DNA of 64,000 nt, from positions 1 to 64,000 of the forward strand of contig NZ_AQPN01000145.1 in NCBI RefSeq assembly GCF_000403135.1, read 5' to 3'. Below are positions 54,577 to 64,000 of this stretch, piece after piece. The notes below the pieces were generated by a model. That model saw only the letters and a program-made list of their open reading frames with translations. It had not been told where the DNA came from and ran no database searches. Positions within the stretch are counted from its first letter, which is position 1; the number at the start of each line of letters is the position of its first letter. Position numbers and translations under genes: made by a program. The DNA comes from Arcticibacter svalbardensis MN12-7. Its GTDB lineage: Bacteria > Bacteroidota > Bacteroidia > Sphingobacteriales > Sphingobacteriaceae.

Positions 54577-55410
54577 ATGAAACAAACATTTCTCTACATC
54601 TTTTTTTTGAGCATCACATTAGGCATATCTAATGGCTTCGCTCAAGAAAAGGTACTTTACAAACAAATAGATACCACAAAATTATTTATCGATATTTATT
54701 ACCCAAAACACGCTGATGCTTCAAAACCGAAGCCTGCCATGGTCTTCTTTTTTGGTGGAGGATGGGTTGGTGGCACTACCTCCCAGTTTTTAGATCAAGC
54801 AAAATATTTTTCGGAAAGAGGATTGGTGTGTTTTCTGGTTGATTATCGAACAAAAAATAAAAATAAAACCACTCCTTTTGAATGTGTAAAAGATGCAAAA
54901 TCAGCCATGCGTTATATTCGTAAAAACGCAGTTAAATTTGGGATTGACCCCGATAAAATCATCGGATCGGGTGGTTCTGCCGGTGGGCATTTGGCTGCTG
55001 CAACTGCTTTAATTGATGATTATAACGAAAAAACAGATGATTTAACGATCAGTTGCAAACCTGATGCCTTGGTTCTTTTTAATCCCGTTATTGACAATGG
55101 ACCAGCAGGTTATGGTTATGAAAGAATTGGTGACGCTTATAAAAGCTTTTCTCCACTACATAACATTAAAAAAGGAGCGCCACCAACCATTATATTTTTA
55201 GGGACTAAGGATAAACATATCCCAACTGTGGCTATGGAATATTATAAATTGGTGATGGAAAAAATAGGTAGCCGATGCGAATTACATTTATACCCTAATG
55301 CCGAACATGGCTTTTTTAACCAATCAACCAGTAAAGAAAACTATACCAGCACTGTTAATTTCGCTGATCTATTTTTACAATCTTTAGGTTACTTAAAGCC
55401 TAAGGAGTAG
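54577..55410 (+). CDS. Secreted alpha/beta hydrolase (esterase)
   Basis: 277 residues with a signal peptide (IFFLSITLGISNGFAQ). The oxyanion-hole motif FFFGGGWVGG, the nucleophile elbow GSGGSAGGHLAA with Ser134, acid GTKDKHIP and His NAEHGFFN make a complete catalytic set of the BD-FAE/acetyl-xylan-esterase-like group. It most likely removes acyl groups from polysaccharide. It follows the dead sulfatase by one base and is separated from the downstream cluster by the IS982 remnant, so its link to the PUL may be historical. Confidence 0.9.
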   Translation: MKQTFLYIFFLSITLGISNGFAQEKVLYKQIDTTKLFIDIYYPKHADASKPKPAMVFFFGGGWVGGTTSQFLDQAKYFSERGLVCFLVDYRTKNKNKTTPFECVKDAKSAMRYIRKNAVKFGIDPDKIIGSGGSAGGHLAAATALIDDYNEKTDDLTISCKPDALVLFNPVIDNGPAGYGYERIGDAYKSFSPLHNIKKGAPPTIIFLGTKDKHIPTVAMEYYKLVMEKIGSRCELHLYPNAEHGFFNQSTSKENYTSTVNFADLFLQSLGYLKPKE

Positions 55411-56600: not shown

Positions 56601-57731
56601 ATGAGATTTTCGAACTTCTTTTTACTCATTTTGTGTGCAGGGAATCTTTTAACTGCTAATGCACAAACCACTACTACTTTACAAATTAGCAATCCTAGCA
56701 GCTTAACTTATTTTGATAAGGTTATTGAAGTTCCATGGAAAACAATAAACAAAATTGACACTGCTAAGTTGATTGTGATTGAATCGGACACAAAAATGCA
56801 AATCCCTTTTCAACTAGAAAAAAAGGGCACTTCAAATGTAGTAAATCTATTGATTCAGATTTCTTTAAATTCTTATCAAAATAAAAACATTTTAATTACT
56901 ACCGGGCAAAGAGAAAAATTTGCTAGTAAAACCTATGGTAGATACGTACCAGAAAGATTAGACGATTTTGCATGGGAAAACGATAAGATAGCATATCGTA
57001 TGTACGGAAAAGCACTAGAAACTACGCCCAAAGACAACGCTTATGGAATGGATGTATGGGTTAAGCGTACTGACAGACTGATTTTGAACGAAAGGTACAA
57101 AAGAGGTGATTACCATATAGACCATGGAGATGGGATGGATTATTACCATGTAGGTTTCACCCTGGGGGCCGGTAATATGATGCCCTATTTAAACGATTCT
57201 ATTTATTACTCTAAAAACTATGTAGAATATAAAGTATTAGATAATGGGCCACTACGTACTTCATTCCAATTATTTTATAACGAATGGCAAGTTGGTGATC
57301 AGAAAGTTAAAGTTACCAAAACATTCTCATTAGATGCTGGAGATTGGTTAAACAAGATTGAGGTAAATTATTCGGGGAGCAATGTTAAAAATTTACCAGT
57401 GGTGGCAGGTATTATTGGCCGCCCGGAACCTGGTGTAAAATATTTTAACGAACAAAATGGAATTATGAGCTATTGGGAACCACAACATGGCCCAGATGGT
57501 GTTACTGCCTTATCATGCCTATTCCCTTCTGCAGTTCAAAAAATGGCAGAAATTAAAGGGCAACTTCTAACATTTGCAAAAACCGATGAACAAGGAGCAA
57601 TTACTTATTACTCTGGTGCAACTTGGAACCGGCAAAGCACTTTTACCAATAACAACGCATGGGTAAAATATCTGGAAGATTTTAAAGAATCATTGGTTGC
57701 AAAAATTGTTATTCAAAAAATTAGTCAATGA
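56601..57731 (+). CDS. DUF4861-family secreted protein
   Basis: 376 residues with a signal peptide (LLILCAGNLLTANAQ). The DUF4861 pattern is clear: GRYVPERLDDFAWENDKIAY, RMYGKALE, YGMDVWVKRTDRLILNERY, HIDHGDGMDYYHVGFTLGAG and QHGPDGVTALSC. The family is common in Bacteroidota loci for uronic-acid polysaccharides and is thought to act on glycan fragments, but no reaction is firmly assigned. It leads the cluster that goes on with sulfatase, beta-helix protein, sulfatase and lyase. Confidence 0.88.
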   Translation: MRFSNFFLLILCAGNLLTANAQTTTTLQISNPSSLTYFDKVIEVPWKTINKIDTAKLIVIESDTKMQIPFQLEKKGTSNVVNLLIQISLNSYQNKNILITTGQREKFASKTYGRYVPERLDDFAWENDKIAYRMYGKALETTPKDNAYGMDVWVKRTDRLILNERYKRGDYHIDHGDGMDYYHVGFTLGAGNMMPYLNDSIYYSKNYVEYKVLDNGPLRTSFQLFYNEWQVGDQKVKVTKTFSLDAGDWLNKIEVNYSGSNVKNLPVVAGIIGRPEPGVKYFNEQNGIMSYWEPQHGPDGVTALSCLFPSAVQKMAEIKGQLLTFAKTDEQGAITYYSGATWNRQSTFTNNNAWVKYLEDFKESLVAKIVIQKISQ

Positions 57732-57869: not shown

Positions 57870-59429
57870 ATGTTTAAAAAAAATAAATTATTTTATCTCT
57901 TAACGTTGATTTTTTTTTCGACTAATGGCTTTACTCAAACACAATTGATTAGGCAAGATAAAGGAAGTTTAAAACTCAAAAAAAATGACAACTCAAAGCC
58001 AAGAAACATTGTTTTTATTTTGGTGGATGACCAACGGTACGATGCACTAGGTTTTTTAAAAGCGCAAGATTTTATAAAAACACCAACGCTTGATTTAATG
58101 GCCAAAGAAGGCGCCTATTTGCCCAATGCTTTTGTAACAACTTCACTATGCTCTCCTTCTCGGGCATCTATTCTTACCGGATTATATGCGCATTTGCATA
58201 AAGTAGTTGATAACCAACATGCGGTGTCTAAAGACTTGATTTTTTTCCCTCAATATTTACAAAAAGTGGGCTACCAAACTGCTATGATAGGCAAGTGGCA
58301 CATGGGTGGCGAATTTGACGATCCGCAAAAAGGTTTTGATTATTGGGTTTCTTTTAAAGGACAAGGTTCTTATTTACCCGAAGCCAATGGTTTAAACGTA
58401 AATGGCAAACATGTAGCACAAAAAGGCTACATCACAGATGAACTTACGGATTATGCTTTAGATTTTCTGAACACCAGAAATACTAAAAAACCATTTATGC
58501 TGTACTTATCACATAAAGCTGTTCATGCCGAGTGTATTCCCAGAGAAGAAGATAAACATTTAGCAGATAATTTTAGCTTCAAACCTCCTCTAAGCATGAC
58601 TATTGGCGTACATCAAGGAGCACCTATGTGGTTGCAAAATCAGCGCAATTCATGGCATGGTGTAGAATTTCCTTTTCATAGCACTGCTGATATTGGCGAA
58701 ATTTATAAAACCTATGCAGAAACCTTGTATGGTGTAGATCAGTCTGTTGCAAGAGTGATGGATTATCTAAAGAAAAACAATCTTTTAGAATCTACATTAA
58801 TCATTTATATGGGCGATAATGGTTTCCAATATGGAGAGCATGGTTTAATTGATAAAAGAACTGCTTACGAAGCTTCGATGAGAGTGCCCATGTTAGCCTA
58901 TTGTCCAGAAATTATTAAACCAAATACCGTAGTTCCAGAGGTTGTAGCGAATATTGATATTGCATCTACTCTTTTAGAAGCTGCAGGCTTAAAAGCACCA
59001 AACTATATGAATGGAAGCAGCTTTTTGCCACTATTAAAGGGTGAAAAGAAAGATTGGAGAAAAGGATTGCTCTATGAATATTATTGGGAACGCAATTTCC
59101 CGCAAACCCCTACAGTACATGCCATACGTGGCGATAGGTATAAGTACATTAGATATACGGGGTTGTGGGATACCGATGAATTATATGATTTAAAAAACGA
59201 TCCAAATGAAATCATCAATTTAATTAGAGATAAGGACCACTTAGCAATTGCTGCTGAAATGAATCATGAACTGTTTAAAGAATTAAGCAGCACAAATGGC
59301 TTATTTGTTCCATTACTTCCAGATAGTGGAAACCAAAGTATTTTACGCTACGAGTATGGTACTCCAGCGGCAAAATTCCCATCATATTTAATGAGAGAAA
59401 AAACTGAAACTCATGTCGAACACAAATAG
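57870..59429 (+). CDS. Type I (formylglycine) sulfatase, exported
   Basis: 519 residues with a signal peptide (FYLLTLIFFSTNGFTQ). Metal site NIVFILVDDQRYDALGF, formylglycine motif LCSPSRASILTGLYAH with Cys94 as the modified residue, IGKWHMGGEFDDPQKGFDYW, MGDNGFQYGEHGLIDK and RGDRYKYIRYTGLWD are all seen. It should remove sulfate from a polysaccharide or its fragments in the periplasm. The Cys-type active site needs a maturase that is not in the window. Its 3' end overlaps the next frame by 17 bp. Confidence 0.95.
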   Translation: MFKKNKLFYLLTLIFFSTNGFTQTQLIRQDKGSLKLKKNDNSKPRNIVFILVDDQRYDALGFLKAQDFIKTPTLDLMAKEGAYLPNAFVTTSLCSPSRASILTGLYAHLHKVVDNQHAVSKDLIFFPQYLQKVGYQTAMIGKWHMGGEFDDPQKGFDYWVSFKGQGSYLPEANGLNVNGKHVAQKGYITDELTDYALDFLNTRNTKKPFMLYLSHKAVHAECIPREEDKHLADNFSFKPPLSMTIGVHQGAPMWLQNQRNSWHGVEFPFHSTADIGEIYKTYAETLYGVDQSVARVMDYLKKNNLLESTLIIYMGDNGFQYGEHGLIDKRTAYEASMRVPMLAYCPEIIKPNTVVPEVVANIDIASTLLEAAGLKAPNYMNGSSFLPLLKGEKKDWRKGLLYEYYWERNFPQTPTVHAIRGDRYKYIRYTGLWDTDELYDLKNDPNEIINLIRDKDHLAIAAEMNHELFKELSSTNGLFVPLLPDSGNQSILRYEYGTPAAKFPSYLMREKTETHVEHK

Positions 59430-61839
59430 ACTTAAAAGGATGACCAATTTAATTCGATTATCAGTCTTCGCACTTTATCTATCGCTAAGTTCGTTTAAAG
59501 CTCCTGTAAAGGAATTTTACGTATCGCCGAAAGGAAACGATACTGCGAAAGGAACAAAGGAAAATCCTTTAAAGACATTAGATAGAGCAAAAGAACTGGC
59601 AAATGCTTTTAGCGGAAAAGCAGAAGTAAACATCATTTTAAACGATGGCATTTATTATTTGCCCAATACTTTTGTATTGAATAGTAACAATTCTGGAACT
59701 GCAGAAAACCCAGTTATTTATAAAGCTTTAAACGAAGGGAAAGCGATCATAAGCGGAGGCACTTTGCTTAACTTAAGATGGAAACCCTATAAAAACGGAA
59801 TTTATACGGCCCAAATAACTGGTGAACAAGACATTTCACAGCTTTACATCAATGGCCAAAACCAAAGAATGGCTCGTTTTCCTAATGCCATTGAAGGTAA
59901 AAATGTTTTTGATACTTGGGATTTAGATCATGGAAAAACCGCAGATCCTAAAAATGACCCTTTAGATTTGAACAGAATAAAATCGTGGAAAAATCCAGAA
60001 GGTGCATATTTACATGCTATGCATCAGGCTTTATGGGGAGATATGCACTGGTTGGTAAAAGGTAAAAACACTGATGGTAGTTTAATTTTAGAGGGAGGTT
60101 GGCAAAATAACCGTCCATCTGCCATGCACCCACGCTACAGAATGATAGAAAATGTCTTCGAAGAATTAGATGCACCCGGCGAGTGGTTCTACAATAAAAA
60201 AGAGAAAACACTTTATTACTATCCCCTAGCTAAAGTTGATTTAGCAAAAGCAACCGTTGAAATTGTACGTTTAAAACATTTATTAGTGTTTAACGGAAAC
60301 CAAAAGCAGCCTGTAAAACATGTAAGCTTTCAAGGTTTCGTATTCAGACATGCTAGTCCGACCTTTATGCTAAATAAAGAACCGCTTTTACGTAGCGATT
60401 GGACAACTTACCGTGGTGGAGCCGTTTTTTTTAATGGTGCAGAAAATTGCAGTATCATTAATTGTGAATTTGACCAAGTGGGCGGTAACAGCATTTTCGT
60501 AAATAATTACAATCGAAAAATAACTATTAAAAGCTGTTATATCCACGAAAGTGGTGCTAATGGAGTTGCTTTTGTTGGTAACCCAGATATGGTACGTAGC
60601 CCATTATTTAGATACGGAAAACAAGATTTCGATAAAATTGACCTCACCCCAGGTCCTAAAGGAAATGATTACCCAGAGGATTGTTTGGTAGAAGATTGTT
60701 TAATTACCAAAACTGGCCGCTATGAAAGACAAACCGCTCCCATACAAATCTCTATGTCGCATAAAATTACAGCCAGCCATTGTTCAATTTACGATGTTCC
60801 GAGAGCGGGAATAAATATTAGCGAGGGAACTTTTGGTGGTCATATAATTGAGTATTGCGATGTGTTTAATACCGTATTAGAAACTGGCGATCATGGTAGT
60901 TTTAACTCTTGGGGAAGAGACCGATTTTGGACTCCGGACATTAACCAAACTGTTAAAGAAGTTGTTAAACATCCAAACTTGCCTAAGTTAGATATTTTAG
61001 ATTTTAACACCATCAGAAATAGCCGTTTCCGTTGCGACCATGGCTGGGATATAGATTTAGATGATGGTTCTACATGGTATAAAATTTACAATAACGTTTT
61101 ATTGAATGGCGGTTTAAAACTTCGTGAAGGATATGACCGTATGGCTTATAATAATGTCATTATCAATAATTCACTGCATCCACATGTTTGGTATGCAGAA
61201 AGTGGTGATGTGTTTAAAAACAACATTGTTTTTGGAGCTTACAAACCAGCAGTAATGAACAAAACAATTGCCGAGAATGGGAAATGGGGCACATTGATAG
61301 ATTCTAATCTTTTCACTTCCAATATCATCGATTTAGAAAAATTTAAAGCCAATTCAACGGATGCGCATTCGCTAGTAGGCAACCCTAATTTTATTGATGC
61401 TAAAAATGGAGATTTTAGAGTAAAAGAAAATTCACCAGCTCTAAAAATCGGATTCAAAAACTTCCAAATGGAGTTTGGTGTGAAATCTAAAAAACTAAAA
61501 GCCATTGCAAAAACTCCAATTATCCCCGATTTAGTTTTTAACACAAAAGTAACCGTTGAAAAAACATTTGAGTGGTTGGGCGCTCGAGTAAAAAACGTAG
61601 AAACACTTTCAGAACAATCTGCAGCAGGCCTTGCAACAATAAGCGGTGTGTTAATATTAAAACTTTCTGTGCATGCTGCTGCAGAACAAGCAGGCTTTAA
61701 AACTGGCGATGTGATTACCACATATAATGGCAAAACTGTTGACAACTATAAGCAACTCATAGAATTATTCAATAACAACAAAATTATTTCAATTGGGATA
61801 ATGAGAAATCAAGAGAAAGAAATCATTAATTTTAAATAG
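59413..61839 (+). CDS. Right-handed parallel beta-helix protein with a C-terminal PDZ domain
   Basis: 808 residues from ATG 59413; the ATG at 59440 (MTNLIRLSVFALYLSLSS) starts directly at the signal peptide and follows AAAAGG, so it may be the real start. Residues 35-100 are a DUF1565-like entry (FYVSPKGNDTAKGTKENPLK, TLDRAKELA). Residues 100-650 are beta-helix coils with FQGFVFRHAS, NCSIINCEFDQVGGNSIFVN and SCYIHESGANGVAF. Residues 735-805 are a PDZ domain (GVLILKLSVHAAAEQAGFKT, GDVITTYNGKTVDNYKQL). Beta-helix proteins in such clusters are glycoside hydrolases or lyases. The PDZ fusion is unusual. It is in the sulfatase cluster and overlaps the preceding stop. Confidence 0.87.
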   Translation: MSNTNRLKRMTNLIRLSVFALYLSLSSFKAPVKEFYVSPKGNDTAKGTKENPLKTLDRAKELANAFSGKAEVNIILNDGIYYLPNTFVLNSNNSGTAENPVIYKALNEGKAIISGGTLLNLRWKPYKNGIYTAQITGEQDISQLYINGQNQRMARFPNAIEGKNVFDTWDLDHGKTADPKNDPLDLNRIKSWKNPEGAYLHAMHQALWGDMHWLVKGKNTDGSLILEGGWQNNRPSAMHPRYRMIENVFEELDAPGEWFYNKKEKTLYYYPLAKVDLAKATVEIVRLKHLLVFNGNQKQPVKHVSFQGFVFRHASPTFMLNKEPLLRSDWTTYRGGAVFFNGAENCSIINCEFDQVGGNSIFVNNYNRKITIKSCYIHESGANGVAFVGNPDMVRSPLFRYGKQDFDKIDLTPGPKGNDYPEDCLVEDCLITKTGRYERQTAPIQISMSHKITASHCSIYDVPRAGINISEGTFGGHIIEYCDVFNTVLETGDHGSFNSWGRDRFWTPDINQTVKEVVKHPNLPKLDILDFNTIRNSRFRCDHGWDIDLDDGSTWYKIYNNVLLNGGLKLREGYDRMAYNNVIINNSLHPHVWYAESGDVFKNNIVFGAYKPAVMNKTIAENGKWGTLIDSNLFTSNIIDLEKFKANSTDAHSLVGNPNFIDAKNGDFRVKENSPALKIGFKNFQMEFGVKSKKLKAIAKTPIIPDLVFNTKVTVEKTFEWLGARVKNVETLSEQSAAGLATISGVLILKLSVHAAAEQAGFKTGDVITTYNGKTVDNYKQLIELFNNNKIISIGIMRNQEKEIINFK

Positions 61840-61857: not shown

Positions 61858-63326
61858 ATGAAAAAAATATCAAAAAATCCAATTACAAAATTAAGCATAC
61901 TCACTGCATTACTGCTTGTAGTAGCTGTTTCTTTTGCACAAGAAAAAAACAACCTAACATTATATTCATTTTATGTGATGACTTAGGCTATGGCGATTTA
62001 GGTTCTTTCGGTCATCCAACTATTGAAACACCTAATATAGATAAGTTAGCCTCTGCTGGATTAAAACTAACTAATTATTACGCCGCTGCTCCTGTTTGCT
62101 CACCATCAAGAGTGGGTTATTTAACGGGCAGAAATCCAAATAAAGCGGGTGTTTATGATTTCATATCGGGCGTGAATAAAAGCGAGGATTGTAGGGATTT
62201 AGTACACATGCAAAAATCAGAACACACCATCCCCGAAATGTTAAAATCTGCAGGTTATGCTACTGCAATAATGGGAAAATGGCATTGCAATTCTAAATTT
62301 AATAGCGCTGCACAACCACAACCAAACAATTTCGGGTTCGATTATTGGTTTGCTACCGCAAATAATGCAACTCCTAGTCATGAAAACCCCGTAAACTTTG
62401 TGAGGAATGGCGTAGCAGTTGGAGAAATAAAAGGGTTCAGTTGTCAAATTGTTATGGATGAAGCTTTGGGTTGGTTAGATAAAAAAACAGATAAAAAACC
62501 GTATTACCTTCAAATTTGCTTTCACGAACCACATGAATCTATTTCTTCTCCAAAAGATTTGGTTCAAAAATATCTCCCAAAATCAATCAACGAAAATCAA
62601 GCCCAATTTTTTGCAAGCGTAGAAAATGCTGACAGAGCTGTGGGTAGATTAATGAGCTATTTAGAGAAAAATAAAGTAGAGAATACCATTATCATTTTCA
62701 CTTCAGATAATGGCCCAGAAACTTTAAACAGAACCAGTAAGTCATTTAGATCATACGGTTCAACTGACGATTTAAAAGGACATAAACTTTGGACTAACGA
62801 AGGGGGTATTAGAGTTCCTGCAATTATTTATTGGAAAGGCAAACAAAACTTTAAGGGCACTAGCGATGCTGTGGTTTCTGCGCTTGATTTCTTCCCAACA
62901 TTTGGCGAATTAACGGGTGCAAAACTACCAAATGTTGGATTAGACGGTGAGTCTATTAGCTCATTAATAAAAACGGGAAATTACAATCGTAAAAAACCAT
63001 TGATTTGGAGTTTCTACAATGCTTTAAACCAAGAAATGGTTGCCATGCGTTTTGGCGATTGGAAAATTTTAGCAAGACTAAAAAATGAGAACAAGTACTT
63101 GCCTCAATTTGAAAATATTTATAGTGGGAATTGGGAGTTAGTTAAAAATGCCAAACTAACCGATTTTGAATTATACAATATAAAAATGGATAGAATAGAA
63201 AAATTTGAAGTTTCAAAAGCAAATAAAGAAGTTTTTGAAGATATGAAAACCAGACTAGCTAAAGAATATAATGCCTTATTAAGCGAAAGTTTTGTTTGGT
63301 CGAGAACTACTGGTAAAGCTGAATAA
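61858..63326 (+). pseudogene. Second type I sulfatase, frameshifted in an A7 tract
   Basis: ATG 61858 opens a signal peptide (ITKLSILTALLLVVAVSFAQ). After GCACAAG-A7-C the frame reads EKNNLTLYSFYVMT-stop, whereas one more A gives EKKQPNIIFILCDDLGYGD, the sulfatase start. The rest stays in that frame to 63326: PVCSPSRVGYLTGR with the formylglycine Cys (TGC at 62097), MGKWHCNSKFNS, FTSDNGPETLNR and GGIRVPAIIYWKGKQN. The loss of one A in the run at 61943-61949 is thus the only defect. It could be a real mutation, a switchable slippage tract or a sequencing slip. Confidence 0.9.
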
Positions 63327-63337
63327 TTAATAAAAAA

Positions 63338-64000
63338 ATGAAAACAATATTAAAATTAATTTTAATCTTTCTGTTTATTTCAAACACCTCTTTTGCTAAA
63401 GCTGATGATGGATTAAACATTACTGCCTACTTAAAATTAGCGAATGGCGATCAGATTTATCCAACCGCTAAACAAATAAAGATGTTACGTCCATTTATGC
63501 CACAGGAAACCTTTATGCCTGCACCAGCATATAGCGATAGGGATTATTGGAACAAAATTGCAAATTCATCATCAGGAAAAGAATACTTAAAGGAAGCTTA
63601 TGCAGTAATACAAAAAACTCCTGAGATCCCTATTTCTGATGAAGTGTATAGAGAAGCCAATAAACAAGGCAATAGAGGGATGTATAAACCTAAATATTAC
63701 AATACCATGGAGAGATTGGAGTATTTTATATTGGCAGAATGTCTTGAAAATAAAGGGAATTTCATACCTCAAATAGAAACTTATTGTAAAGCTATTATGA
63801 CGATGAAATCGTGGATGCATCCTAACCATGACGATTCGGCAAACAGCAATTTAGAAGGCAAAAGCATTGCAATTGATTTAGGTGCACGGAAATTCGGGTC
63901 GGTTTTAACGTTGGCTAATATTCTTTTAGCAGATAAATTGCCTGCCAAGTTAAGAAACGATATATCATCAATTGTACATAAAAGAATTACAGCATCATAT
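63338..64000 (+). CDS. Probable polysaccharide lyase (alpha/alpha-toroid type), N-terminal part
   Basis: The frame from ATG 63338 stays open to the window end (221 codons). It has a signal peptide (LKLILIFLFISNTSFAKA). Then comes a helical domain with ALxCxxK-type features: YSDRDYWNKIANSSSGKEYL, NTMERLEYFILAECLENKGN, IMTMKSWMHPNHDDSANSNL and IAIDLGARKFGSVLTLANIL. The MHPNHDD block and repeated helices are like heparinase II/III- and alginate-lyase-like toroid proteins found with sulfatases. It is likely to cleave the uronate-containing chain desulfated by its neighbours. The catalytic parts lie beyond the edge, so the family is not certain. Confidence 0.6.
   Translation, partial: MKTILKLILIFLFISNTSFAKADDGLNITAYLKLANGDQIYPTAKQIKMLRPFMPQETFMPAPAYSDRDYWNKIANSSSGKEYLKEAYAVIQKTPEIPISDEVYREANKQGNRGMYKPKYYNTMERLEYFILAECLENKGNFIPQIETYCKAIMTMKSWMHPNHDDSANSNLEGKSIAIDLGARKFGSVLTLANILLADKLPAKLRNDISSIVHKRITASY

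Follow-up and report, generated by a model that had tools for sequence, protein, structure and literature searches.

A GH141-like β-helix protein with a C-terminal HtrA-type PDZ domain, encoded between two sulfatases in Arcticibacter svalbardensis and found in several bacterial phyla

The closest described relative in structure of the protein considered here is BT1002, a GH141 α-L-fucosidase from Bacteroides thetaiotaomicron (PDB 5MQP) in which D523 and D564 are essential (PMC10154630; PMC12786026) and whose chain ends after the helix, without a PDZ domain. The Wf141 GH141 endo-fucanases of Wenyingzhuangia fucanilytica, which we compared by description and not by sequence, are reported to share the GH141 fold and the same aspartate pair and to belong to a fucoidan-degrading cluster; a PDZ domain is unmentioned in the text of that report (PMC12786026). 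The parallel β-helix repeat protein of PDB entry 9rx2 is matched by sequence at 1.7e-53 over positions 15-380 and 619-684 of our family profile, but its 717-residue chain stops where the PDZ would start. A literature search of partial coverage returned no paper describing a PDZ domain attached to a PUL glycosidase, whether GH141-like or of another kind.

The window (the whole 64,000-nucleotide stretch of contig NZ_AQPN01000145.1 of A. svalbardensis MN12-7 that was analysed) contains a gene in which a long β-helix is joined to a PDZ domain, and which lies, as the preliminary description of this DNA had stated, between two sulfatase genes (Table 1). Its reading frame holds no stop codon anywhere. 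The first ATG, at 59413, overlaps the upstream sulfatase gene by 17 bases, and for that reason the in-frame ATG at 59440 (M10), which is preceded by AAAAGG, is the likelier and probably the true start; a probable signal peptide follows it, and the protein is likely to be secreted, whether periplasmic or exported. The preliminary description had itself raised the possibility of a frame error near 61.6 kb, that is, a chance join of two genes. Nothing was found in favour of such a join, which is ruled out by the full-length relatives: the architecture recurs in over 90 proteins encoded by independent genomes.

Table 1. Features of the window around the β-helix and PDZ gene
Feature	Position	Strand	Basis
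BD-FAE type esterase	54577..55410	+	Pfam
DUF4861 / BT3233-family polysaccharide utilization protein	56601..57731	+	Pfam, NCBIfam
Upstream sulfatase (PF00884)	57870..59429	+	Pfam
β-helix and PDZ gene	59413..61839	+	Open frame; listed as 808 aa, with ATG 59440 the likely true start
Probable Sec signal peptide, hydrophobic and free of Cys, from M10 to about residue 30	59440..59502	+	Sequence; model helix 4-26; inference
GH141-like parallel β-helix and insertion domain, residues 31-700	59503..61512	+	Pfam, PDB sequence search, structure alignment
D493, aligned with BT1002 D523, putative nucleophile	60889..60891	+	Alignments; D in 100/101 family members
D550, aligned with BT1002 D564, putative acid/base	61060..61062	+	Alignments; D in 101/101 family members
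Likely linker, residues ~704-718, variable	61522..61566	+	pLDDT 75 in block 711-720; low conservation
HtrA-type PDZ, residues 719-808, carboxylate-binding loop W721-L722-G723-A724	61567..61836	+	Profiles, structure model, structure alignment
Downstream sulfatase, split by -1 frame change at seven A (61943-61949)	61858..63326	+	Pfam; frame comparison
Start of 651-aa protein, weak heparinase II/III C-terminal match (E 0.003)	63338..64000, on to L005:13293	+	Profile match

The β-helix was recognised by Pfam as right-handed (PF13229, E 2.6e-10), and the solved structure closest to its model is 5MQP, which aligns with model residues 31-699 at Z 37.2 (504 residues, 2.9 Å), insertion domain of the BT1002 type included, at a sequence identity of 18%. 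The next-best fold reached Z 28.0, and PL6 lyases and AlgE epimerases, which are parallel β-helices as well, aligned at Z 25-27. Those alignments, and the presence nearby of a gene for a weakly heparinase II/III-like protein that is possibly a diverged lyase, could be taken to mean that the β-helix is a lyase, an epimerase or a non-catalytic binding protein; we consider this improbable, because BT1002 stands 9 Z units higher with its insertion domain included and because both of its catalytic aspartates are retained. The description of the protein as a polysaccharide-active β-helix was right. D493 and D550 were mapped by a MAFFT joint alignment through GH141 intermediates; an hhalign alignment of the family against GH141 ended before both residues. 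The GH141 profile aligned to the 5MQP sequence over nearly its full length, in a numbering that apparently runs five residues ahead of the published one, as judged from the 41-residue spacing.

We call the protein GH141-like and not a member of GH141, because its match to the Pfam model of the GH141 insertion (GH141_M) stays under the cut-off (21.1 vs 27 bits). The clade has its own insertion or loop after D493 (DHGSFNSWGRDR), a feature that sets it apart from BT1002, and a further motif, CDHGWDIDLDDGS. GH141 also includes a xylanase, and with the GH141_M match under its cut-off and the clade's own insertion after D493 the linkage specificity may differ from that of BT1002.

At the C-terminus, the PDZ reading of the preliminary description was borne out by profiles, by a structure model and by structure alignment. 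The HMM search that it had proposed for residues 720-808 gave an NCBIfam Do/HtrA match over residues 720-806 (E 1.3e-9) and, with the full chain as query, Pfam matches to PDZ_6 (E 3.7e-6) and PDZ_2 (E 7.9e-6), the former exactly level with its curated threshold and the latter slightly short of it; when the domain was searched by itself, both models scored above the threshold of 27 bits (31.1 for PDZ_2, 29.8 for PDZ_6). The whole-chain structure prediction, also proposed there, was made with AlphaFold2 from 64 family members (mean pLDDT 90.9, pTM 0.89) and shows, at 719-807, strands and helices in the order typical of a PDZ, so that the domain is C-terminal as described but about 90 residues long, starting near residue 719, instead of occupying the last 70. 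Folded alone (pLDDT 85.2), it aligned to DegQ and DegP PDZ domains at Z 12-13.7, the top match being a DegQ PDZ (Z 13.7) with PDZ1 and PDZ2 types tied, and the PDZ profile matched DegP-like proteases in the PDB at 1e-24. The strand order is that of the HtrA, DegP and DegQ domains; the fusion differs from those proteins in its lack of a protease domain, in placing a single PDZ on a glycosidase and in a nearly invariant R-N-Q turn.

Within the family, the carboxylate-binding loop is kept to different degrees at its positions (W 87%, G 74%, A 61%), and S736, A737, G739, G745, D766, R798 and Q800 are near-invariant, with E734 at 88%; DegP has the E-x-S-x-x-G pattern too, in its second PDZ. Conservation is poor in helix 779-785, which lines the groove, and a single invariable peptide ligand is less plausible for that reason. 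Between the β-helix and the PDZ, residues ~704-718 are variable and of lower model confidence, and are likely to form a flexible linker.

The pairing of β-helix and PDZ is genuine, and it occurs widely across several bacterial phyla. A scan of one genome per species (84,980 species) returned at least 579 relatives, and the best 80 of these, which were fetched, come from records of Bacteroidota, Planctomycetota, Verrucomicrobiota, Lentisphaera, Acidobacteria, Capsulimonas and Neomarinimicrobiota. A survey of how often β-helix and PDZ co-occur in PULs had been proposed earlier; within this family, the family profile finds the PDZ in 94 of 101 proteins, a sample that best-hit selection biases toward full-length proteins and a profile that was built from many of the proteins counted. 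With a limit of E 0.001, Pfam PDZ_2 matches 68 of the 72 relatives that were aligned, a count that is independent of that profile. Among the seven proteins without a PDZ, five end at a contig end and a sixth (L073) has a broken frame close to one; the seventh, L080, is the only complete relative of the 101 that lacks the domain.

A search of 151 genomes of the taxonomic family gave 16 other relatives of near-full length (43-48% identity), and every one of them extends into the PDZ, to query residue 778 or beyond, whereas remoter relatives (24-34% identity) end by about residue 700, which indicates that the PDZ marks the clade of the window protein. Distances between PDZ domains and between β-helices are correlated (Spearman 0.53; none of 1000 permutations as high), and the fusion is therefore old, with both parts inherited together, the PDZ evolving faster than the β-helix (median identity 0.31 vs 0.54). 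When 99 genomes of the class were searched with the PDZ profile, the extra matches were an HtrA protease (L171) and a 792-aa frame (L170).

The same genome carries two paralogues, on contigs C110 and C79, and both lie near GH29 genes. The C110 paralogue (L007:15572-17014, 480 residues) keeps residues 19-382 and the PDZ and has an in-frame deletion of 383-694, that is, of the catalytic rungs; a GH29 gene follows it directly. The C79 paralogue (L009:13017-15812), which lies in a region with several GH29 genes and two sulfatases, passes the GH141_M cut-off (31.5 bits vs 27), has Glu where the putative nucleophile would be Asp (TGEHG) and carries a CHB_HEX_C/Fn3-like domain between the β-helix and a diverged PDZ-like end. 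A first Pfam reading had taken this paralogue to be without a PDZ, and was dropped when the family profile found the diverged end (E 1.5e-5, against only 0.12 for Pfam PDZ). Elsewhere, relatives are fused to a GH95 domain (Lentisphaera marina, L101:7583-12844), to a GDSL esterase (L118:9359-12427) and to an α/β hydrolase (L055:9977-13168), and one has a C-terminal part of about 950 residues without clear family (L107:9974-15352).

The PDZ most likely docks a partner protein or the enzyme itself, and its conservation pattern, with the loop kept and the groove helix variable, would be compatible both with a partner differing from species to species and with cis packing. If it acted in cis, docked on its own β-helix with no partner, it could stabilise the chain or shape the cleft, as might be read from the conserved segment before the linker (F681, G689, V690, L695, P702), from R798 and Q800, which are near-invariant across phyla while the groove helix varies, and from the pTM of the full chain. 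We nevertheless regard packing in cis as rather unlikely, since the linker is variable and of lower confidence, BT1002 works without a PDZ, and a complete relative without one exists. The extra domain of the C79 paralogue, inserted before the PDZ-like end, suits a module acting at a variable distance from the enzyme and favours a species-varying partner over cis packing.

As to the identity of that partner, the neighbouring sulfatases had been named as an example, bound through their C-termini so that a periplasmic degradation complex would form. The domain does retain its carboxylate-binding loop, and sulfatases flank the gene both here and at loci L043 and L045. However, these are the only 3 of 81 loci with sulfatases on both sides, and the PDZ, present in 94 of 101 proteins, is kept where no sulfatase is near, a sulfatase being found within six genes at 24 of the 81 loci. 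HtrA-type PDZ domains usually bind hydrophobic C-termini. The C-termini of the 51 neighbouring sulfatases have no motif in common and show no excess of hydrophobic ends (hydrophobic last residue in 24%, against 9% for GH29 and 32% for other neighbours), the two tails in the window being ...HVEHK and ...TGKAE, and in this genome the downstream sulfatase gene carries a frameshift. Tethering to the sulfatases is thus not supported by the survey, and we think it very unlikely. At the frameshift the sequence reads CAA GAA AAA AAC, with the signal peptide in one frame and the CSPSR-bearing body in the other. The A AAA AAC at this junction is a canonical -1 slippery heptamer; a homopolymer error, a pseudogene or phase variation would explain the split sulfatase as well as -1 slippage.

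The likely substrate is suggested by the neighbours of the relatives. The neighbourhood set comprised 598 neighbours at 81 loci, 80 of them contig loci chosen as best hits and so biased to full-length relatives. In this set the largest clusters were sulfatases, with 51 genes at 24 loci, GH29, with 47 genes at 32 loci, and GH95, with 15 genes at 13 loci, and a putative SusC-like cluster occurred at 7 loci. Fewer than 12 GH29 genes are present in this 4.7-Mb genome, and by our own estimate about one to two GH29 neighbours would be expected by chance. Some loci carry an amidohydrolase, an aldo/keto reductase and a zinc alcohol dehydrogenase, which together may constitute an L-fucose oxidation route. 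In the window's own cluster there is neither GH29 nor GH95, and no SusC or SusD was recognised by eye among the ORFs around it, so that at this locus the link to fucose rests on the relatives. Taken with them, cleavage of fucosides in sulfated, fucose-containing glycans is the most likely activity of the enzyme.

We consider it reasonably probable, therefore, that the protein is a secreted glycosidase of the GH141 superfamily acting on fucosidic linkages in a sulfated, fucose-containing glycan, with its PDZ docking it to a partner. Its domains, fold, catalytic pair, conserved fusion and gene neighbours are shown by the comparisons above, and its fucoside specificity, secretion and peptide docking are inferred from them. 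Hydrolysis of these linkages would proceed with D493 and D550 as the expected nucleophile and acid/base pair, as is thought for D523 and D564 of BT1002, while sulfatases and GH29 and GH95 fucosidases would cooperate by stripping side groups and terminal fucose. The HtrA-type PDZ, on its short and presumably flexible linker, would be a standing docking module of the clade, which most likely binds a peptide or C-terminus of a partner protein and so keeps the enzyme attached to that protein. More tentatively, and as a possibility to which we give limited weight, this GH141-like clade of at least six phyla could use the PDZ to recruit a specific partner, which would make a peptide-addressed glycan-degrading complex unlike those of dockerin and cohesin or of SusCD.

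Sulfated glycans rich in fucose are hard to break down and act as a carbon store, and their degrading enzymes have been mapped poorly. The GH141-like clade is large and retains its catalytic residues; it supplies specific enzymes for assay and raises a testable question, namely what role a PDZ domain, usual in quality-control proteases, would have on a glycosidase.
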